A stretch of DNA of 35,959 nt from Saccharicrinis sp. Its GTDB lineage: Bacteria > Bacteroidota > Bacteroidia > Bacteroidales > Marinilabiliaceae. Positions 4,458 through 18,982 of this stretch are shown here, in pieces (the first letter of the stretch is position 1; every line of letters starts with the position of its first letter). The position numbers and the translations under genes were made by a program. The notes under the pieces were generated by a model. That model was not told where the DNA came from, made no database searches, and saw nothing but the letters and a program-made list of their open reading frames with translations. The stretch is from the NCBI GenBank assembly GCA_024635555.1, contig JAGXIO010000010.1, forward strand, positions 1 through 35,959. The letters run 5' to 3'.

Positions 4458-4764
4458 GGTGCAGGGGTTAAATGAGATATTTAACCCAAAAGACTCAAAA
4501 TTAGCTTAAATAGCCTTGTTTGCTGTAGTTTATTGCTAATTTCACAAGAGGTTTTGTAAGTGTAGGATCAAAAGGTATGGGATTCTTATTATAGAAAAAA
4601 ATAGTGGTGCTAATTACAGCATGCTGTTTACTTATCAATAAAATACATTGTATTTGTGCGAAATTTCTTATATCTTGTAGTGAACTTATTAATTGATAAT
4701 GGATGTTCCGTCAAGCAATGGCATTTTTATAGCATCCAAATATTAACATTTTAAAATATTAACC
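4458..4764. other. Intergenic region upstream of ytxH-1
   Basis: AT-rich spacer between the divergent valS and the first ytxH gene. I see no open frame of note, no strong hairpin and no clear -33/-7 pair for the plus-strand gene. The last 24 bp before the ytxH ATG resemble the leader of the second ytxH copy at 8054-8077. Confidence 0.4.
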
Positions 4765-4998
4765 ATGAACTCAGGAAAAGTATTGTTAGGTTTACTTGCA
4801 GGTTTTACTGCCGGAACCTTGTTAGGCATGTTGTTCGCATCTAGTAATTGTGATACCGAAAACAAAAATAGTTTTTGGTGCAAGGATAAAGATGAGGACA
4901 ATACGGATGAGAAATTAAATGATTTTATAGAGGATATCACCGAAAAATTTGCCGATTTAAAAAAGGATATCATTGTTGAACAAGCTAAAGCCAAGTGA
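4765..4998 (+). CDS. YtxH-like small membrane protein (copy 1)
   Basis: A 77-residue protein. Residues 4-26 form one Gly-rich hydrophobic segment (GKVLLGLLAGFTAGTLLGML followed by FAS), the signature of the YtxH family of general-stress membrane proteins. The rest is a charged, mainly acidic tail with a heptad-like end (FIEDITEKFADLKKDI). It is closely related to the gene at 8078-8317: the first ~26 residues are almost identical, the acidic tails have diverged, and similarity continues into the 24 bp upstream. The stop is 4 bp from the convergent cupin gene's stop. Function in the envelope or stress response is inferred from the family only. Confidence 0.85.
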   Translation: MNSGKVLLGLLAGFTAGTLLGMLFASSNCDTENKNSFWCKDKDEDNTDEKLNDFIEDITEKFADLKKDIIVEQAKAK

Positions 4999-5002
4999 AA
5001 GA

Positions 5003-5540: not shown

Positions 5541-7010
5541 CTATTCGATAAAATTTGGTTTGATTACAATATCGATCCGGCGGTTCATTTTACGGCCGGC
5601 AACGCTTTCATTGTTGGCCACAGGTTTGCTTTCGCCAAAACCTATGGTGCTAAATCGTGCTTTGTCGATGGAAGTATTTGCATTAAGGTAGCTCAGCACT
5701 GCATCGGCCCTGTCCTGTGATAATTTTAGGTTAAGATCGTCGCCCCCTTGCGAATCGGTGTGTCCTTCTATTACGATGGAGGCATTATTGAACAGGTTCA
5801 TTGTTTCGCGCACCTGGGTAAGTAGCTTATAGTCTTCTTGTTTTATTTGAGCTTGTCCTACATCAAAGTTCACGCCGATCATGCGTATGATCACATCATC
5901 TTTTTGACGGAACACTTCAGCTTCTTCCTTGTCAAATGTTTGTTGTACTTGCTCAAATTTGGCGTTTATATCCTCCATTCTATCAATCCTGTTTTGTGCT
6001 TTTAGGGCTTCTGCGGATAAAGTACCTTTCATGTCGGTAATAATCTTTTGTTGTTCCCTTGCCATGGACTCCAGGTTTGTATTCATCGTCCGTTGACTGA
6101 TAACGGTAGATTTAAGATTTGATATGAGCTTTTTATCCTCCTCAATTCGATTAATAATTTTTGAAATGGGTTCGTCGATTCCATTATTGAATTTTACGTC
6201 GATGTTAAAACTCTCCCCTATTTTAGCCAATGGGGCATAACACATCAGTAGGTAATCTTCGGTTTCGAAATCTTTGTCATCCAGCACTTCTTCCTGTTTG
6301 GCTATATGCAATGCCAATAGTGCTTTATATTCGGCTTGTTTGGCCAAATGCCTAGCCATATCGGTATCGTATCTGTTGTCGACCAATTCTTTTTCTGCTT
6401 GGTCAACCAGGTTTTTGGCCTCTGCTATGGTTTTAGGCGCAACTTTGTCCACTTTCTTGTCGTCGGCTTTTTGCAATAGCTTTTTTGCATTGGCCAGATA
6501 ATTCGCTGTTATAGATTCCAATTCGGCCTTTCGGTATAAATCGGTAGCCTTGGCCGCATCTTCCTTTGCTTCGTTCGAATCTCCTTTTTCCAATTCCTCG
6601 GCGGCATCTTTCAATTTTTCTTCGGCATCATTCCATATTTCTTTTACAAACTGCCCTGCTTCGGCACTTATGGCATCCTGTCGGGCAGATAATGCACTCG
6701 AAAACATAACGCTGCCCACTTTTGTGTTTTGGGTTGCTTTTTGAAAATTGATGTTCGCTTTCAAAATTTTTTCTTTGATATCGGAAAGGTCTCCATTTTC
6801 GTCGTACTCCTTTTTGGCTTCTTTATATGCATCTACAGCCTCCTCATAGGCAAGGGGCGACAATATATCTGCGTAAGCATCTTTTGCCATCATCATAGAT
6901 TTGTTTACTTCATCAAATAAGGATGCTTGCAAGTTCTGGCCTTGAAGACTACACATGGCTATTGTTAGGGCAACCAAGATTCCCATTAACTTTATTTGTA
7001 CTTTTTGCAT
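5541..7010 (-). CDS. OmpA-family outer-membrane/peptidoglycan-binding protein with helical N-terminal domain
   Basis: Starting at the ATG at 7008-7010 gives 489 residues beginning with a lysine-containing hydrophobic signal peptide (MQKVQIKLMGILVALTIAM). An ATG 30 bp upstream would add ten residues ahead of the signal and is less likely. Residues ~20-330 are long, charged, Ala/Glu/Lys-rich helices (DUF4398-like and coiled-coil character). The last ~120 residues are an OmpA-like peptidoglycan-binding domain with VIEGHTDSQG and the NLKLSQDRADAV signature (the N-x2-L-S-x2-R-A motif), and end with GRKMNRRIDIVI. The domain should anchor the protein to the cell wall from the periplasm or outer membrane. 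It lies 148 bp downstream of the AraC-type regulator, in the same direction. Confidence 0.88.
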   Translation of the reverse strand: MQKVQIKLMGILVALTIAMCSLQGQNLQASLFDEVNKSMMMAKDAYADILSPLAYEEAVDAYKEAKKEYDENGDLSDIKEKILKANINFQKATQNTKVGSVMFSSALSARQDAISAEAGQFVKEIWNDAEEKLKDAAEELEKGDSNEAKEDAAKATDLYRKAELESITANYLANAKKLLQKADDKKVDKVAPKTIAEAKNLVDQAEKELVDNRYDTDMARHLAKQAEYKALLALHIAKQEEVLDDKDFETEDYLLMCYAPLAKIGESFNIDVKFNNGIDEPISKIINRIEEDKKLISNLKSTVISQRTMNTNLESMAREQQKIITDMKGTLSAEALKAQNRIDRMEDINAKFEQVQQTFDKEEAEVFRQKDDVIIRMIGVNFDVGQAQIKQEDYKLLTQVRETMNLFNNASIVIEGHTDSQGGDDLNLKLSQDRADAVLSYLNANTSIDKARFSTIGFGESKPVANNESVAGRKMNRRIDIVIKPNFIE

Positions 7011-7157: not shown

Positions 7158-7718
7158 TTATACATCCTCCAGGTTTTGCTTGCGTTTGTTTTTTAGATTT
7201 CTATAAAATGTGGGGGTGTGACCGGTAATTCTTTTGAATTGGTTGGATAGGTGTGCCACACTGCTATAGTGCAGTTTATAGGATATTTCAGTAAGATTAA
7301 GTTCGTCATAAATAAGTAGCTCTTTAACTCTTTCAATTTTATGAAGAATGATAAACTGCTGGATGGTGATTCCTTTTACTTCGGAAAAAACATTGGATAG
7401 ATAGGTATAGTCATAACCAATTTTCTCACTTAAATAATCAGAATAATTAACCTTTGGGACTTCATCTGTGTAATGAATCAGCTCGATGATTACATTCTTG
7501 ATATTTTCAATCAGGACGCTGTTTTTGTCATCGAGAAGTTCAAAACCTGATTTTTTCAGGTTGCTTTTAAGCTGAAGTATTTGTGCTGGACTGATTTTTT
7601 CCAATATTTCGATTAGCCCCAAATCTACGATAACATAATGAAGTCCAAGTTTTTTGAGTTCCTCTTTTACCACCATTTTGCATCGCAAACTGACCATGTA
7701 TTTTACATATAACTTCAT
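7158..7718 (-). CDS. AraC-family regulator with degenerate HMA-like N-terminus
   Basis: The 186-residue form starts at the ATG at 7716-7718; an in-frame ATG at 7743-7745 would add nine residues. The last ~90 residues hold the two helix-turn-helix units of an AraC/XylS DNA-binding domain (LSEKIGYDYTYLSNVFSEVKG, then LTEISYKLHYSSVAHLSNQF and KRITGHTPTFYR). The N-terminal ~65 residues (KLYVKYMVSLRCKMVVKEEL) resemble the small heavy-metal-associated fold of a Bacteroidota AraC subgroup that usually carries MVCxRC. Here the first Cys is Ser, leaving SxxC, so metal binding is probably weakened or lost. There is no cupin-type sugar-binding domain. The gene sits between ompA and the second ytxH, behind a hairpin string, and may control this cluster (inference). 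Confidence 0.85.
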   Translation of the reverse strand: MKLYVKYMVSLRCKMVVKEELKKLGLHYVIVDLGLIEILEKISPAQILQLKSNLKKSGFELLDDKNSVLIENIKNVIIELIHYTDEVPKVNYSDYLSEKIGYDYTYLSNVFSEVKGITIQQFIILHKIERVKELLIYDELNLTEISYKLHYSSVAHLSNQFKRITGHTPTFYRNLKNKRKQNLEDV

Positions 7719-7793
7719 ACGATTTTTTACGATTTCCTGTATCACTCGAAGATAGCAAATAAATGATAGAAAAATGTGTATTTATTTTTAACC

Positions 7794-7939
7794 TGAAAAA
7801 TGCACGCATTTTTCACTTTCCGCTATCATAGGCGGAAAGCCGTAAAAGTTTAAGTAAACTTTTACGAGGGTTAACCCTCGATTCTGCTTAGGCAGAATCG
7901 GCCTTTGGTGCCCTATTCATAAATTTTATGAATAGGGCA
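7794..7939. repeat. String of six consecutive perfect hairpins
   Basis: Six perfect inverted repeats lie almost end to end. (1) TGAAAAATGC/GCATTTTTCA, 7794-7815, 2-nt loop. (2) CTTTCCGC/GCGGAAAG, 7816-7839, 8-nt loop. (3) CGTAAAAGTTT/AAACTTTTACG, 7841-7866, 4-nt loop. (4) CGAGGGTTAACCCTCG, 7865-7880, no loop. (5) CGATTCTGC/GCAGAATCG, 7879-7900, TTAG loop. (6) arms 7909-7923 and 7925-7939, 15 bp each around one base. Hairpins 3-4 and 4-5 share two bases. The string lies between araC (minus) and ytxH-2 (plus). No T-run follows any stem, so these are not ordinary terminators. Confidence 0.9.
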
Positions 7940-8077
7940 GGTTAAGTGTGAATTATGTAATTAATAAACAGAAATGTGTAAAGGTATAATTGATTTATAT
8001 ATTGATCTTGTGTTACCACAAGTGTTGATAGCCAGTATGCATTAGCGTTTGAATATTAAGTTTTTAAAACATAAATT

Positions 8078-8317
8078 ATGAGCTCAGGAAAAGTATTGTT
8101 AGGTTTACTGGCAGGTTTTACTGCCGGTACTTTATTAGGCACGTTGTTCGCCTCCAATAATGGTGACGCCGAAAGCAGAAATCATTTTTGGAACAACGAT
8201 AGAGATGTGAATGAAAATGAGGAGAAATTCAATCAAGTTATTGAGGATATAACGGATAAATTTGAAGATTTAAAAGAGGAAATCGTTTATGAAAAATCTA
8301 ATGCTAAGGGAAACTAA
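8078..8317 (+). CDS. YtxH-like small membrane protein (copy 2)
   Basis: A 79-residue paralogue of the 4765-4998 gene. The single Gly-rich membrane segment at residues 4-26 is nearly identical at DNA level too. The tail is acidic (NNDRDVNENEEKFNQ) and ends in a coiled-coil-like stretch (VIEDITDKFEDLKEEIVYEK). It starts 138 bp after the hairpin string and ends at a TAA, with a strong hairpin 20 bp later. As for copy 1, a role in envelope stress is known for the family only. Two paralogues with the same leader bracketing one regulator suggest co-regulation (inference). Confidence 0.85.
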   Translation: MSSGKVLLGLLAGFTAGTLLGTLFASNNGDAESRNHFWNNDRDVNENEEKFNQVIEDITDKFEDLKEEIVYEKSNAKGN

Positions 8318-8337
8318 ATAAAGATCAAGCCAAGGTG

Positions 8338-8374
8338 AAACACGCCTATTCTTGTTCATAGAATAGGCGTGTTT
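8338..8374 (+). terminator. Hairpin terminator after ytxH-2
   Basis: AAACACGCCTATTC (8338-8351) pairs perfectly with GAATAGGCGTGTTT (8361-8374), a 14-bp stem. The T-run is short (TTT), so termination is likely but not certain; it could also serve the opposite strand. Confidence 0.65.
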
Positions 8375-8379
8375 GTGAG

Positions 8380-8517
8380 TTATGCGATTAACTTTTCGAC
8401 AATTATTCCTACTAAGAATCCAATAGTTGCTTCTAGAAAGGTGAGGTAGTTTTTTCTCAACTTACTTTCGGGTATGATATCCTGTATCAATAGATATTTA
8501 TCGCAGCCAATCTTCAT
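8380..8517 (-). CDS. Possible 45-residue membrane peptide
   Basis: In the 358-bp gap between ytxH-2 and the DUF5686 gene a minus-strand frame from ATG (8515-8517) to TAA (8380-8382) encodes 45 residues: a charged N-terminal half (KIGCDKYLLIQ, then PESKLRKN) and a C-terminal hydrophobic segment (FLEATIGFLVGIIVEKLIA). The frame stays open about 34 codons upstream without a usual start, so it could also be the tail of a decayed gene. No family is recognised and no Shine-Dalgarno sequence is visible. Low confidence. Confidence 0.25.
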   Translation of the reverse strand: MKIGCDKYLLIQDIIPESKLRKNYLTFLEATIGFLVGIIVEKLIA

Positions 8518-11578: not shown

Positions 11579-14500
11579 TTATTGCGTCAATGAAAAGCGG
11601 AAGCTTACCCCAAAATTACTGTTGGAAGTAGGGTAGGAGCTCGAAATGTAGGGAGATGTAACCGCACGGTCGTAGAAAACTTGCATGTTAAACCTGTCGC
11701 TCAGTACATAATCGGCAGTTATTTTTAGGGTGTTTATTTTACGTCCCGATGTGAGTTGGTTCACGCCGTCTTCAATTCTTCTAAAAATAGCAATGTTGTC
11801 TTTCATTGAGAAATCAACTCTCAGGTTCAGGTCGCTCGACATTTTTTTTGCACCGGCTTTACTTCCTAAAATCAAGTCCATCTTATCAAAACGATAGCCC
11901 AAACCAATGGTTAGGTCGTTGTTGTAGTTCTCAATAATTTGGTTGTTGCTTAAACTTAGGTTAATGGTGCGCGTTTTTTTACTTTCTATTTTGGTGGTGA
12001 TGTTGTTTTTCCAGGTGATGTTAAAACCGATGAGTGGCATAAACATCTCGTTTAACGATACCGAGTTTACCTGATACTGCGACATGAAGTTGTCTTGCAG
12101 ATCCCTGATCCAACTTATGCCGTCGCTGCCATCCATATAACTCGAATTGGTAATAAATGAGCCCACATTATATGTGGAGCGATATCCGTGTGTTATTTCG
12201 AAGGTTTTAATGAGTTTTTTAACTGGCTTAATCTTGGTTAACCCGTTGTAAGTGACCCTCCAGTTGGGATGCATCTTTAGGATGCTGGGAAATAGATCGG
12301 TAAATATATTGTTGACGTCTTTGCCACTGTAAGCCGCTAAAAAGGCAGGTATCAGCACCTCTTGCGAGTTAAGACCGTAGCCGTTTTGTCCGAACTTATC
12401 CTTTTTTGGAGATGGATCGTATGGTGCTCCATCTTCAAGATCCTGAAGTCCGGTGCGTTCCTGGGCCAATTTGGCGGCCATCATTTGGCGGTTCTCTAAA
12501 AATTGGTTGTATGTTTTCGATTCGTAAATACCCGTTTTACTTACTTTTTCAAAGGCCGTGTTAATGAGGTTGAAGGTCATGGTAAAATTACCGTTTTCGC
12601 GGGTGTTGTACGACTGAAAACTACTGCCCTCCTTAAAGTAATACTCGTTCATGTTATTGGAGTACCTTCTGTTTGCCGTTAAGTCTATCCTTAAACCATC
12701 GATGGGCTCAATAGTTGCTTTTAAAGTAAAATCCTCCTGGTGGGTCATCACATAGGCTTGATTGATGGTGTCCACTGTAACCCAGCCTCTTTCTGCGGCT
12801 GTACGGGCAAAGTCGCGATCCTGCCATCCGGCAATAAAACCATAGCCCGGTGCATCAAAGCCATTATAGGTTGTTGATCCCATAAACTTGGTATCTGGCA
12901 AATAACCTGGTAATATGGTACCATTGGTTTCGGTGTAGTTTATGCTTATGCTTTTAACCCCGGTAATGGCCATGGCTGTATAATCGACAATAGTTCCCAG
13001 GATGGTTGATTTATCTTCGCGGGTTCCTGTTACCATAGCCCTGGCATTTTCGTAGTCCACCTCGGGTATAAATTCTATTTTGTTTTGGTCAATGGTTACC
13101 GATTCGCCACGTGCCGTGCGCCCGTTTGAGTCGAACATACGCACTTTGGCATCATCGCTGCGTAATTTATGGTTTATAATGTAGGATTGTCCTTTTTTAA
13201 GGTTGATACCCTCTTGGTTAAACCTAACTGTTTGTTTGTTGCTTGCATTCTGGTTTCGATCCGAACCACTGTATTTGCGATCAAGACCCTTGAGGTAGGC
13301 TGAACGATTGTATAGTGTTTTTAGATTGAGCTGTAAGGCCCCTTGAATATTATTTGAGTTGCTGATGGTGTTACCCCACTCAATGGCATTGTTAGTGGAT
13401 TGGGGTGCTGTTTGCCATCGGTACATTCCGCTGTAACGTATCGTTGTGTTAGTCCAATCCAGGTAAGGTATTTTGTCGATGGGTAGCTTATAGCTCAAGT
13501 TAAAATTGTGCTGGTAATTTGTCACCCTGCCACCGTTCATGATGTTCGACGTTACAGAATCTTTCCAGATTTCATAATCATCCTTAAGATCCTTATCTAC
13601 CACCAACACGCTTAATGGCTCATCAATACGGGCATTGGTTGTCGACTTAAAGTCAAACTGCAAATTTTTGGTTAGGTTATACCTCAAATCGAAATACCGG
13701 TTCCAGTTAAAATCCTTTCGTACCGTAATTGGAATTCTAAAATTTGGGTTGTTCACATTACGAAGCTGCTCCTGGGTATATTGCCTTAACATTTCGTTAC
13801 GATACGATAATTGCGTGGGCATTAAATAAAAGTTAAAGTCTTTTATCATTTTAAAAGCTTCGCTTTTTAGCGCCTCACTCTTTGCAAAAGGTTCGTATGC
13901 TTTTGGTCTGTTGTTAAAGCTATAGGCCAATACCCCACGGTAATCTTTTGCTAACCTCTCCTCTGTTTTTACGTTGTGTGCCGTGGTAATATTGTACGAG
14001 TAGGTGGCCGACAGGTTAGATACATCATAAATTTTCGATTCGCTGCCTTTGGGCCTTAAGCGTACATTGGTAAAGTTTACGCTCTTGCGTTTAACCACAT
14101 CTTGCGACATATTTTTAATGCTATCTCTTTGGGCATCGCTGCTGGCATTATCCAGAGCCACTTCTAAGGGTATATCTGGATCTAGTGGGTAATAATCAGG
14201 ACTGGCCACTTCTTTTGATAAACCGAAATAAAAAGGTATGGACATGCGCGATTTAGCTCCGGTAAATTTACCTAGTTCCAGGTTGGTGGCTATGTCGTAC
14301 TGAAAAAAGTCCTCCTGGCTGCGCTCCATCACATTTTTTTCGATACTACCAAAGCCTACCGTATGCATGTTACCGGCTAGCGAAACATTACCCAGATCCG
14401 ATAGTTTTATGTTCATACGGGCATTGGCGGCCCATCCACCTTCTTCGTTAAAATCGGTAAGCCTAAGTTCATTAAACCAAGTTTCGAAGGACACTACGTC

Positions 14501-17500
14501 ATCGGCTACGCTGTGCACACCTATCATAATGGTGCGTATGTTGCTCAGGTTAGGGTTGCCCTTTATTTTTACATAGTTGCGGTTATTGTCAGGGTCTTTG
14601 ACTGGGTACACTTCATTTACTGAGGCTCTTGGGTCTTCATTACGTTTTAGTTTAATAGCCTGAAACGCGCTAAGGGCAAAGTCGAAACGGTTGTTCTCTG
14701 GCCATATATCGCTTGCAGAGATGGCACCGTGGGCAGTCATCTCCAAAGGTATTTCGTACTCGTAATAGTTATTTTTACTATCGGATCCCAGACGTATAAA
14801 GGCTCTTACGTTATTGTTACCTACGCTGCCTTCCACAAATTCTTCGGCGTGAACTTCCAATTTCAAACGTCCATATTGACGCATGTCCATATTCAGGGTT
14901 TTAAATATGGCGCGTCGGTCGTTTTCGGCCATATCGGTTAATTTTAGCGATATGGATTGTTCGTTTAGTTGGCGCAGTTGCGGGTTGGCAGGGTCTATAA
15001 TACGGTCGATACCGGGAGGTAAAACGTAGTTGATGGGCGATCTGTTGGCATTTTCTTCAATATTTACAGCTCCCGACTCAAACTTGGTTTTCTCAGCATC
15101 CGTCTCATTAACATCTGGTTCACCATCTTCCAGAAGGTCGAGGGTATATTTTCGCCATTCGCTACGTACCAAATCCAGGGTAGCAAAACGCAGGATGGTA
15201 GTGTCCTGAAAGTTATGGGCAAACATACGCATAAAACGGATAGAGCGTGTGTCCTGAATGTTACCTATCGTGTCAGTAGGATTGTTGATAGGAATCCGGA
15301 ACTGGTACCATTTTACACGTTCCGTTTTTTTATTCTTCAGCTCCACTTCGGCCTCTCTAACATCGGTAATGTAGTTTGTACCCACTTCCATAGTGTTTGG
15401 ATCGAGCCTTACTCTATACTGATAATAACTTTCGTTTTCGCTTAAGGTATTGTCGCGGTTAATATCCTCCATGTTAGGGGTTGATATGGAGGCTGTAGCA
15501 TAGGATTCCGGTGAATATTCCGACGAAACTGAGTTTCCTTCTGGCCCATTAAAATTCTTGTATCTATCCAGGATAGTCGCTTTGTTTTCGTCAAGCTTAC
15601 TGCCTCTAAAGTATTGGTAATTATCGGCTGCAGGGTCATTCATGATGACCTTATAGGCGGTATCCGATAGGGCTATGGTTTGGATGCCTTGTTTAAACTC
15701 TCCGTAAAAATCCCATTCTTGTTTACTATTTAAGCCGTCCAAACCCACATCTTGTCTTAAACGAGCTTCGGGGTCGTTGCTAAATGCGTTCACCAGACTT
15801 TGCTTGGTGGGCACGTAACCCCAGGCGGTTGAATCCACATCGAATGGTTCACCAGGTCCAGGCATACCCTGCTCAAAAAATTTGCGCGAATCGCTCAATA
15901 CATCTTCGGATACGTTACCCAGGTTAAAATATAAATCTCCCGCCTTTTCAGGATTTTGATTATATACAAAAGGATCCATCATCCAGAATTCGATAAATTC
16001 AATGTTGGCAGCTTCAAAATCGCTGGTTTCTACCCTACGCTGAATACCGCCCCAACGTGTTTCTGGCTTGGTAAGGTCACCGTTTTGTTCCAGGTCGGTA
16101 GTAAAGTTATAGGGGCCTCGTTCCTTGGGATAATAAGCAAAGTTTAAAACAGGTATGTTGGTAGGTGTTCCCGTAGCCACCTCCTGGTTGGGGAATATCT
16201 CCTTGACAAATATCTCTCGTGAAAAGTGGTTCGACAGTAAGTCTAAATCGTTGCGCACATGGCTGGGCGTAAATTGGTTATCGCGCGAAAATAAGGGGTC
16301 AATGATATACCATGCTGCTTTTGCCCGCTCGTATCCTGCGCTCAAATCATTAATTAGTTCGGCATTTGGAAATAAATTCGTTTGCCCTTGAGGTGTGCTG
16401 GCCAAGCTCCATGCTGTCCAGTTGCGCATGTCAATGGATATTTTAGTACCCTCAAAGTCATCAATATACGCTTCACCCTCATTTTTAATAACATCGGGAT
16501 GACCAGGTATCAGCTGCGCATACTCACCTTCGAATGAAACACTCGATGGCTCTTTTACTTGCAGCAGTGGTATTCCGTTTAACATGTTGGTAATCCATTG
16601 CGACTCGGTAAAATACGAAGTATTAAAACCGTATATGGTGTTGGCAATGGGTTCGTCGCCAATGCTAACTTTTTGAGTAAGAGGTCGTTCGCGCAGGTGC
16701 ATAATAGTACCTCCGAAGTTAAAATCCTTGTTAAACTGATAGTTCAAGTGCGTGCCCATCAGCGTTTTGGTTTGCAAATTGAACATGCTCTGGCTTTCCA
16801 AGGATACCTGAATAGGCGTTCCGCTGCCCAACAAACCTTGGTTGATAATTTTTACGGTACCAAAAGAGTAGTCCACCGTATAATCCACATTTTCAACCAG
16901 TTTAATTCCACCAGCGGTAACTATTACCGAGCCTTGTGGTACGTTTTGTGCGTTTAGCGATATCTCACTGCCGGTGCTCGATTTATACTGTCCTTTAAGT
17001 CTGAATTTATTTTTCTCAGCATTCTGAGTTGCCAGTGTTTGGGTTGAATCGTACAGCGCCTGATAACCATATTTTTTCCACCGATCATCGTCTACGTCTC
17101 CTCCAAATAATTTTAAAAGATGTGACCCGAAAGGTTCTAAAATTGGGAAGATAATCCTTCCGTTTTGTGGATAAATGGTTTGGTTTTCGATATAATCGAA
17201 AGTGCCGTCGGGGATAGGATCGTAGGCCTCGTTTAGCTTGTCTAAGTCCATCAGGCTCAGCAATAATTTACCTTTTAGGGTGCCATTATCGGGTAAATAG
17301 TTTATAAGAGCACCTGTTGAGTCATCCACATAAACCACATCAAAAACAAAATCTTCTCTATTTACCTGATAGGCACCAATGGCATAGATGTTTTTCATCA
17401 TCAAATCCCAGGTTTGCTTAACCGTTGGGGTAAGGTTGGTGCTTTTTATCATTTTTAAAAACAACGACTGGGTTGATTCTATTCCATCGCCTGCAAACTC

Positions 17501-18982
17501 ACCTACTTTGTAGGTTTGTCCGTTGAAATCGTACTCGTAGGCAACTGCAAGTACTTCATCCGCATTAAGCGACATATTTAAGGAGATAAAGCCCAGTCTG
17601 CTATTAAGGTCGTATTCGGAGGATGACAGGAGACGCGCGTTTTCAATTTTTTCGTAGTCTATACCGTTTATTAGTTGCGTACTATTAAAAACTTGCGTTA
17701 CCTTGTTAATGTCGCGTACAGAACTATAGGAGCTGTTGAGCTTTGAATATACCCCATTGGCATCATTCGCTGGGCGTGCATAGGGGCTTGCTCCCCATTC
17801 GTCAGGGTTGTGTAGGTTGGCGCCTGTTTCGCCCAAATCCATCAGTGCTAAAATATTACGGGCCTCCTCGTACTGACCTGCGCGGTTGGTTATCCAAACC
17901 TCAATACGGGTAACGCTAATCTTTGAGAGCATGGGATAGTTCGATTGTGCTTCGTTATACAAATCCCTAAAGTAATTGGAGAGGAAAAAGTGACGGTTTT
18001 TATCGTACTCATTAATGGGCAATTCAAACTCTTGTTGCTGAGCACCACCTTGTAGATCCATCACCGATGTTTCGCCTTTTTGCTGCGAAAAAACGGAGGT
18101 CACACTCAGCTTACCAAACTGCATTTCGGTTTTAACTCCAAAAAGGCTCTGGCTGCCTGTTATTAAGGTTCCTGGAAGAGGCAGGGAAACATTACCCGCC
18201 TCAATAGATTTTATGATATCGTCTTCCTTGCCTTCGTATTCGAGTTTCATTTCGTTCTCAAACTCAAAGGTGGCTTCGGTGTTGTAGTTTATGCCCAGTT
18301 TAAGTTTGTCGCCAATGTTACCCTGGATGTTCATCTGTATTTTCTCCTGAAAATCGAAAGTGGTAGTCTTCCTCAGGTTTTCCTGTAGAGTGGGGTTGTC
18401 TATTTTATTGCGCGAAACGCCTATTTTAAGTTCGGCTACACCCTGAGGTTTTATGTTTATCAGGTTGCTACCAAAAATATTATCTAATCCTCCTATGCCA
18501 AAGTTTACGTTGGGATTAAAAATATTGAATTTATCATTTTCATCTACCACTCTAGCTCTGGACTCCCAGTAGGATATCATCGACTTACGGGTCTGCTCAT
18601 CGTTGTACTCCGCCAAAGTCATGGTGTAAGGTAACTTGATGTTTAGGTTGCCAATTTTTCGGTATAGGTGAACTTTGCCGGTTTTGGGATCGTATTCGGA
18701 GGTGTATTCTAAATCTTTAGGCGCAGCCAGCTCCATGGGTTTTTGTTGCTCAGGATTCAGAAAGGGGTTGTTCGATTTTTTTTCGATTGGGCTAAACCTA
18801 TTGCCCTCCTGTAGCTTTGTAGTGTCGGGCTGCTGGCCAGTAGTTTGGCTGCCCGGGATGCTAAGATTATCGGCAACAAAATTATTGGCGCGAATCTCCA
18901 GAAAACCGAAGCCCGTAAATAAAGTGACTATTAATGCACTAATAAGAATATATGGAAAAACTTTATTCAAGTTTTTTTGCAT
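11579..18982 (-). CDS. sprA: Cell-surface protein SprA, T9SS outer-membrane translocon
   Basis: 2467 residues, the expected giant size. SprA (Sov) forms the very large single-chain beta-barrel through which T9SS cargo crosses the outer membrane, and is needed for gliding where present. The N-terminus is basic then hydrophobic (about 8-28), a signal sequence. Family features seen include the periplasmic-side start LPYTMTLAEYNDEQTRKSMI, the FNIFNPNVNFGIGGLDNIFG segment, repeated GNIGDKLKLGINYNTEATF-like strands, and hundreds of alternating aromatic strands to the final FGVSFRFSLTQ. The ATG at 18980-18982 is 44 bp after ruvA, and ruvA-sprA adjacency is conserved in Bacteroidota. The cargo gene at 1-1401 is a predicted client. 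No frameshift is apparent. Confidence 0.97.
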   Translation of the reverse strand: MQKNLNKVFPYILISALIVTLFTGFGFLEIRANNFVADNLSIPGSQTTGQQPDTTKLQEGNRFSPIEKKSNNPFLNPEQQKPMELAAPKDLEYTSEYDPKTGKVHLYRKIGNLNIKLPYTMTLAEYNDEQTRKSMISYWESRARVVDENDKFNIFNPNVNFGIGGLDNIFGSNLINIKPQGVAELKIGVSRNKIDNPTLQENLRKTTTFDFQEKIQMNIQGNIGDKLKLGINYNTEATFEFENEMKLEYEGKEDDIIKSIEAGNVSLPLPGTLITGSQSLFGVKTEMQFGKLSVTSVFSQQKGETSVMDLQGGAQQQEFELPINEYDKNRHFFLSNYFRDLYNEAQSNYPMLSKISVTRIEVWITNRAGQYEEARNILALMDLGETGANLHNPDEWGASPYARPANDANGVYSKLNSSYSSVRDINKVTQVFNSTQLINGIDYEKIENARLLSSSEYDLNSRLGFISLNMSLNADEVLAVAYEYDFNGQTYKVGEFAGDGIESTQSLFLKMIKSTNLTPTVKQTWDLMMKNIYAIGAYQVNREDFVFDVVYVDDSTGALINYLPDNGTLKGKLLLSLMDLDKLNEAYDPIPDGTFDYIENQTIYPQNGRIIFPILEPFGSHLLKLFGGDVDDDRWKKYGYQALYDSTQTLATQNAEKNKFRLKGQYKSSTGSEISLNAQNVPQGSVIVTAGGIKLVENVDYTVDYSFGTVKIINQGLLGSGTPIQVSLESQSMFNLQTKTLMGTHLNYQFNKDFNFGGTIMHLRERPLTQKVSIGDEPIANTIYGFNTSYFTESQWITNMLNGIPLLQVKEPSSVSFEGEYAQLIPGHPDVIKNEGEAYIDDFEGTKISIDMRNWTAWSLASTPQGQTNLFPNAELINDLSAGYERAKAAWYIIDPLFSRDNQFTPSHVRNDLDLLSNHFSREIFVKEIFPNQEVATGTPTNIPVLNFAYYPKERGPYNFTTDLEQNGDLTKPETRWGGIQRRVETSDFEAANIEFIEFWMMDPFVYNQNPEKAGDLYFNLGNVSEDVLSDSRKFFEQGMPGPGEPFDVDSTAWGYVPTKQSLVNAFSNDPEARLRQDVGLDGLNSKQEWDFYGEFKQGIQTIALSDTAYKVIMNDPAADNYQYFRGSKLDENKATILDRYKNFNGPEGNSVSSEYSPESYATASISTPNMEDINRDNTLSENESYYQYRVRLDPNTMEVGTNYITDVREAEVELKNKKTERVKWYQFRIPINNPTDTIGNIQDTRSIRFMRMFAHNFQDTTILRFATLDLVRSEWRKYTLDLLEDGEPDVNETDAEKTKFESGAVNIEENANRSPINYVLPPGIDRIIDPANPQLRQLNEQSISLKLTDMAENDRRAIFKTLNMDMRQYGRLKLEVHAEEFVEGSVGNNNVRAFIRLGSDSKNNYYEYEIPLEMTAHGAISASDIWPENNRFDFALSAFQAIKLKRNEDPRASVNEVYPVKDPDNNRNYVKIKGNPNLSNIRTIMIGVHSVADDVVSFETWFNELRLTDFNEEGGWAANARMNIKLSDLGNVSLAGNMHTVGFGSIEKNVMERSQEDFFQYDIATNLELGKFTGAKSRMSIPFYFGLSKEVASPDYYPLDPDIPLEVALDNASSDAQRDSIKNMSQDVVKRKSVNFTNVRLRPKGSESKIYDVSNLSATYSYNITTAHNVKTEERLAKDYRGVLAYSFNNRPKAYEPFAKSEALKSEAFKMIKDFNFYLMPTQLSYRNEMLRQYTQEQLRNVNNPNFRIPITVRKDFNWNRYFDLRYNLTKNLQFDFKSTTNARIDEPLSVLVVDKDLKDDYEIWKDSVTSNIMNGGRVTNYQHNFNLSYKLPIDKIPYLDWTNTTIRYSGMYRWQTAPQSTNNAIEWGNTISNSNNIQGALQLNLKTLYNRSAYLKGLDRKYSGSDRNQNASNKQTVRFNQEGINLKKGQSYIINHKLRSDDAKVRMFDSNGRTARGESVTIDQNKIEFIPEVDYENARAMVTGTREDKSTILGTIVDYTAMAITGVKSISINYTETNGTILPGYLPDTKFMGSTTYNGFDAPGYGFIAGWQDRDFARTAAERGWVTVDTINQAYVMTHQEDFTLKATIEPIDGLRIDLTANRRYSNNMNEYYFKEGSSFQSYNTRENGNFTMTFNLINTAFEKVSKTGIYESKTYNQFLENRQMMAAKLAQERTGLQDLEDGAPYDPSPKKDKFGQNGYGLNSQEVLIPAFLAAYSGKDVNNIFTDLFPSILKMHPNWRVTYNGLTKIKPVKKLIKTFEITHGYRSTYNVGSFITNSSYMDGSDGISWIRDLQDNFMSQYQVNSVSLNEMFMPLIGFNITWKNNITTKIESKKTRTINLSLSNNQIIENYNNDLTIGLGYRFDKMDLILGSKAGAKKMSSDLNLRVDFSMKDNIAIFRRIEDGVNQLTSGRKINTLKITADYVLSDRFNMQVFYDRAVTSPYISSSYPTSNSNFGVSFRFSLTQ

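Follow-up and report, generated by a model that had tools for sequence, protein, structure and literature searches.

A string of six hairpins in a Saccharicrinis genome as a probable copy of a gene-less, MITE-like element at TTAA sites

The locus and its hairpins

The window analysed here is the whole 35,959-nt stretch of contig JAGXIO010000010.1 from a Saccharicrinis sp. assembly (GCA_024635555.1). Between an AraC-type HTH gene (7158-7745, - strand) and a YtxH-like gene, ytxH-2 (8078-8317, + strand), whose Pfam score of 22.2 bits lies below the cut-off of 37.5, it carries six perfect inverted repeats at 7794-7939, with stems of 8-15 bp and loops of 0-8 nt (Table 1). The repeats and both flanking genes are as the initial annotation had described them, and its picture of hairpins placed end to end is accurate for most, which touch or share two bases, but there are gaps of 1 nt (7840) and 8 nt (7901-7908). 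Folding of both strands, which it had proposed as a check, gives values far below those of shuffled sequences: the RNA fold of the + strand string reaches -79.5 kcal/mol (z = -11.3, with 0 of 200 shuffles as low), the - strand RNA gives z = -11.6 and the + strand folded as DNA gives z = -12.6. What had been overlooked is an outer stem, TTAACC/GGTTAA, in which 7788-7793 pairs with 7940-7945, and a further TTAA at 7871-7874 which, like GGGTTAACCC, lies inside the element. There is no gene in it, the longest stop-free run being 41 codons.

Two other features of the window deserve mention. The YtxH-like gene has a paralogue 3 kb away (4739-5000 and 8078-8317, with 79% DNA identity over 262 bases), and a 2467-aa gene at 11579-18982 (- strand) has SprA_N domains, for which the Pfam name is motility-related/secretion protein.

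Table 1. Features of the window copy
Feature	Position	Strand	Description and basis
Left 4-bp target duplication, TTAA	7788-7791	.	4-mer statistics; empty site of a family-B copy
Element proper, family A, 150 bp, CC...GG	7792-7941	+	model matches; ends from 4-mer statistics and the family-B empty site
Hairpin 1	7794-7815	+	stem 10 bp, loop 2; 96.7% of cells paired over 30 family-A copies
Hairpin 2	7816-7839	+	stem 8 bp, loop 8; 94.8% of cells paired over 30 family-A copies
Hairpin 3	7841-7866	+	stem 12 bp, loop 2; two pairs with changes on both sides
Palindrome CGAGGGTTAACCCTCG, junction of the two halves	7865-7880	+	stem 8 bp, loop 0; contains TTAA 7871-7874
Hairpin 5	7879-7900	+	stem 9 bp, loop 4; three pairs with changes on both sides
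Terminal hairpin 6	7909-7939	+	stem 15 bp, loop 1; core TATTCATA..TATGAATAG common to family B
Right 4-bp target duplication, TTAA	7942-7945	.	4-mer statistics

Two families with one plan

A BLAST search of the same genome with a 171-bp region found at least 22 full-length copies, the one in the window included, as well as partial ones (40 of 62 candidates scored); the other full-length copies are 91-98% identical, and such near-identity points to recent spread. We refer to these copies as family A. A covariance model, R1, built from 30 copies (22 from the own genome, G000; 3 from Saccharicrinis LH_M89, G005; and 5 from the congener G006) has at least 33 matches in the own genome, at least 13 in G006 and at least 6 in LH_M89 (in four places, two of them matched also on the other strand), with no match in the remaining six of eight congeners. 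Across the family at least 5 of 71 genomes are matched, two of which, with single matches beyond the Saccharicrinis trio, hold family B instead. The genome searches score part of the candidates (42 per genome for R1 and 8 for the order-wide search described below), so all such counts are lower bounds, and the E-values of the covariance models are rough. Own-genome copies keep 59-63 of 62-63 pairs and five copies of G006 keep 39 to 56. Four of the eight 3'-shortened copies viewed, none of them cut by a contig end, stop at the internal TTAA or 1 nt before its end; this fits a left half acting alone, although a deletion would look the same.

By mechanical ORF calls, 30 of 32 own-genome copies lie outside longer ORFs, as do all 49 in a set from the own genome and G006 that overlaps the 32. 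When the neighbours of 101 loci (duplicates dropped) were compared in search of a recurrent gene, only weak and scattered similarities appeared, orthologous loci aside. The initial annotation had offered a leader, an unnamed RNA, a protein-binding platform and a landing site for palindromes, and no mobile element. A role as leader of ytxH-2 in particular is at odds with copies that adjoin unrelated genes in tandem, divergent and convergent gaps alike. Nor is each hairpin an independent dispersed repeat, the outcome named there as refuting: the string is dispersed, but it spreads as a whole unit with its hairpins in a fixed order. The earlier interpretation is thus supported in part.

Family B, of about 147 bp, has fewer hairpins than family A on the same plan, in which TTAA-CC is followed by hairpins, GGG-TTAA-CC, a terminal hairpin and GG-TTAA. 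Its own order is TTAA-CCC, a hairpin, a small hairpin, a long hairpin closed by CGAC..GTCG, GGG-TTAA-CC, a terminal hairpin with TATTCATA..TATGAATA, and GG-TTAA; the halves meet at the same junction in both families. DNA similarity places B in at least 12 of 71 family genomes, in some as pieces only, and the exact terminal pattern occurs in 15 stretches, two of which are family A, from Prolixibacteraceae, Tangfeifania, Saccharicrinis and other Bacteroidales records. Of the 393 genomes sampled from the order, at least 25, in 19 of 206 genera, have a match to R2, the covariance model of family B; the own genome and one congener are among them. The aligned order-wide copies have variants of CGACTAAG..CTAAGTCGGGGTTAACC in common. 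Each model largely recognises the other family over its full length: R2 found 11 of 12 family-A loci (E 5.5e-7 to 3e-5, L010 being missed) and R1 found 11 of 12 family-B loci (E below 0.01, L169 being missed). Of the 26 order-wide loci viewed, L247 (short) and L258, which is an element, stand outside the alignment, and rows L164 and L191 (insertions) and L177 (the same as L230) are left out of alignment A2. Searches of viral contigs with two B-type patterns and of plasmids with two B-type copies found nothing, and a search of viral contigs with a neighbour protein found no relative.

Several A and B copies (L065, L104, L107, L109, L111) carry an extra palindrome, some 20-45 nt long, which either sits at the tip of a hairpin or replaces one arm and so makes the hairpin longer; one of these, GGCTGCGCCGAACG.., is common to an A copy and a B copy.

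Conserved order with compensatory changes had been named in the initial annotation as what would support a functional RNA; the order is kept, and compensatory changes are found clearly in family B and more weakly in family A. In B 96.2% of cells are paired. Changes on both sides occur in 14 of 50 pairs (8.0 when shuffled), there are 74 paired-change cells (25.9 when shuffled) and the covariation score is 0.211 (against 0.091); none of 500 shuffles reaches these three values, and slid versions of the structure give no more than 5 such pairs. The number of additional pair types does not exceed that in shuffles (25 vs 24.3). In A, where 94.9% of cells are paired, 9 of 63 pairs have changes on both sides (2.6 when shuffled), with 14 cells against 3.1; shifting the structure by -2 to +1 columns yields 8-9 such pairs as well, at 42-53% pairing, and RNAalifold on the family-A alignment returns 35 pairs, 4 with paired changes, rather than the full fold, and gains nothing from covariation (term +0.05).

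Target duplication and mobility

The ends were examined as the 4-mers adjoining CC and GG in 73 complete copies (30 of A, 21 of B and 22 order-wide), leaving out L254 and L260 (damaged ends), L247 and L258. TTAA stands at both ends of 47, and 13 of the 26 others have identical direct 4-mers (TTAG, CTAA, TTAT, TAAG, TTCA; 4 of 7 in A, 5 of 12 in B and 4 of 7 order-wide), with none inverted. Direct matches, at 60 of 73, exceed the 38.2 expected from shuffling (0 of 5000 shuffles as high); inverted matches do so too (47 vs 37.8, 0 of 5000 as high), because TTAA is its own reverse complement. The two 4-mers differ in 13 of the 26 non-TTAA copies, or in 15 of 28 when L247 and L258, neither direct nor inverted, are added.

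Flanks of 183 copies were also compared with the collected loci, flank matches over 97.5% being dropped, and among the matches listed (60 of 905 one-sided) there is a single clean empty site. The family-B copy L107 (own genome, C225) reads AAACAT-TTAA-(203 bp)-TTAA-AATGAAA, with the element at 1446-1648 between TTAA at 1442-1445 and at 1649-1652, and is absent from locus L195 of LH_M89, which reads AAACAT-TTAA-AATGAAA with one TTAA at 5858-5861; the flanks are homologous on both sides. A 4-bp target duplication is thereby shown statistically for A and B together and by an empty site for one B copy, and that copy, of B and not of A, is shown to have moved as a unit to a TTAA with duplication of 4 bp. 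A second length difference between these loci, of about 140 bp (L107 1215-1352), is present in the own genome and not in LH_M89 and was not recognisable as A or B.

The window locus itself was rejected as a clean empty site: LH_M89 is collinear with it up to 7791, after which 7792-8388 (the element and ytxH-2) is replaced by 37 bp, and the alignment of the right flank is no better than chance. The second YtxH-like paralogue is thus missing there together with the element. The flanks of another copy, L028, gave no empty site in LH_M89 or G006.

It is very probable, then, that the string in the window is one copy of a non-autonomous, MITE-like element of 150 bp, gene-less, running from CC to GG and inserted at TTAA with a 4-bp duplication; besides TTAA, the targets of such copies are sometimes TTAG, CTAA and similar. 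As in MITEs, it is short, gene-less and dispersed (at least 33 own-genome matches) with a duplication of fixed length, and the terminal inverted repeats of 15-30 bp are lacking: these amount to CCTG/CAGG only, about 4 bp, or 8 nt when TTAA is counted.

Mobilisation and recognition

We envisage that a TTAA-preferring transposase encoded elsewhere would move the element in trans, recognising its ends or its fold and, in the manner of DDE transposases, making target cuts staggered by 4 nt. The terminal inverted repeat being so short (about 4 bp), the fold probably plays a part in recognition, and we would guess that either it or internal sites assist. Candidate mobilisers are IS5, IS701 and piggyBac-like transposases. 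In a BLAST search of the own draft genome with family A, which might have brought up an autonomous copy, the 40 candidates scored out of 62 were all copies of the element or fragments of it. Scanning 295 loci (1.41 Mb, with overlaps) for TTAA/TTAG/CTAA pairs 0.7-3.5 kb apart gave five candidate pairs, and the two examined hold ordinary genes: the best lies over a long ORF, a SusC-type gene as judged from its sequence, and another consists of two B copies around a gene of ferredoxin/nitroreductase-like look. These two copies, in a Prolixibacteraceae MAG (L191 503-2464), are equally oriented, lie 1.8 kb apart and have flanking bases in common, perhaps through segmental duplication.

The piggyBac superfamily, known mainly from eukaryotes, targets and duplicates TTAA and has a C-rich start and a G-rich end; TTAA at both ends in 47 of 73 copies makes the present element similar, a likeness that concerns the element ends alone. 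IS5 and IS701 also make 4-bp duplications (PMC10359306 for IS5, PMC2266710 for IS701), and TTAA, TTAG and CTAA fit the YTAR given for IS5, but both carry a transposase and the element here is gene-less. Short, dispersed, tightly folded elements with paired ends and a target duplication are also represented by BOX, which is modular, and RUP of Streptococcus pneumoniae (PMC3049150). BOX and RUP are reported there from pneumococcus and some other streptococci, while the present element occurs in many genera of an order, targets TTAA and has extra hairpins in family A. Bacterial MITEs such as MITECca01 of Cardinium are likewise small, gene-less and mostly intergenic, and target duplication is a general MITE feature (PMC9769881; reviewed in PMC10969869). 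MITEs have, in addition, terminal inverted repeats of 15-30 bp (PMC3733652) and a parent IS, whereas ours are about 4 bp and the searches of the draft genome given above found no parent.

Dispersed intergenic hairpins also bring to mind REP sequences and their TnpA-REP genes, beside which, in Bacteroidetes, atypical structures with copies elsewhere have been described (PMC6006769, PMC3733652). The element might thus be REP- or IS200-like, with a Y1 (HUH) transposase, for example of the subclass 2.6 TnpA-REP of Bacteroidetes, moving it in single-stranded form, and the own genome does have 10 Y1_Tnp matches, of which those at L091, L093, L094 and L095 are genes between repeated multi-hairpin arrays of their own. 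Each of these genes has its own set of arrays, and they resemble the atypical REP genes of Bacteroidetes. We nevertheless regard such a mechanism as very improbable. The element ends and the family-B empty site display a 4-bp target duplication, and we know of none made by Y1 transposition. As a control, R2 was run on 40 Y1 loci from nine same-genus genomes (10 of the own genome, and 30 out of 41 matches), including the four with unrelated multi-hairpin arrays, and has no match at E up to 1 in any of them. In carriers elsewhere, where 30 loci out of 50 Y1 matches were covered, 29 have none; in the exception, L272, the match is 500 bp away, outside the gene's own repeats as read by eye. R1 over the 70 Y1 loci (out of 101 matches, from 23 genomes) gives a single match, weak (E 0.046) and lacking element ends, and unlike in REP systems no Y1 gene among these 70 is flanked by the element's repeat. 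When A and B were compared by BLAST with the ten own-genome Y1 loci, the lowest E-value was 0.016. Finally, neither GTAG nor GTGG occurs in the window copy, whichever strand is read, although a tested B copy does hold GTAG.

The paired changes allow two other readings of the fold. One is selection at the RNA level: besides being mobile, the element would be transcribed, as a structured RNA or as a module of UTRs, an idea that has been discussed for BOX or Correia elements. On the + strand of intact copies, G-T mismatches exceed A-C mismatches (74:7 cells and 15:7 pairs in A, 17:3 cells and 7:3 pairs in B), and family A lies on the coding strand of its neighbours in 16 of 22 co-directional cases (13 of 18 in the other set), matches under 80 or 40 aligned nt being dropped from these counts. 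Over all rows, however, G-T and A-C pairs are even in A (26:25) and reversed in B (7:11), the structure of family A was drawn from the + strand fold, which favours G-T, and family B leans the opposite way in orientation (3 of 10), making any orientation preference weak and inconsistent between the families. There is no constant neighbour and no Rfam family: Rfam has nothing at threshold in the window, and over eight loci gave two sub-threshold matches, the one over the element being STnc560 at 23.1 bits against a cut-off of 55. We consider RNA-level selection unlikely. The other reading, that the paired changes are a mutational by-product of template switching, which corrects imperfect palindromes and leaves stems that merely look selected, seems to us distinctly improbable. 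The longer palindromes grown at hairpin tips (L065, L104, L107, L111) do indicate that stems are remodelled, but among the five fully aligned family-A copies of G006 the loss is 12 to 24 of 62-63 pairs in four and 7 in the fifth, counted on a structure taken from the window copy that favours near copies, so correction does not hold old copies; moreover, the motifs CGACTAAG and CTAAGTCGGGGTTAACC recur across the order, though they are themselves largely paired.

Returning to a gene-less transposon, it is unusual in having many hairpins and tiny end repeats and in being spread across the order, with paired changes in B. Small bacterial elements of this sort have mostly been reported from one or a few species and tied to a parent IS, and our literature search turned up no description that we recognised as this element. 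That one folded plan, with its paired base changes, has matches in at least 19 of the 206 genera sampled means that the plan has lasted, and the empty site provides exact ends, so that the mobilising enzyme and the reading of the fold can be asked about directly. It is possible, if doubtful, that these are order-wide transposons of Bacteroidia recognised by a folded strand, with hairpins between three TTAA sites, rather than by terminal inverted repeats, and mobilised in trans by an enzyme that prefers TTAA and has no copy linked to them. If so, they would join structure-guided recognition, as in IS200, with the 4-bp staggered target cut of DDE transposons, two features that are usually kept apart.
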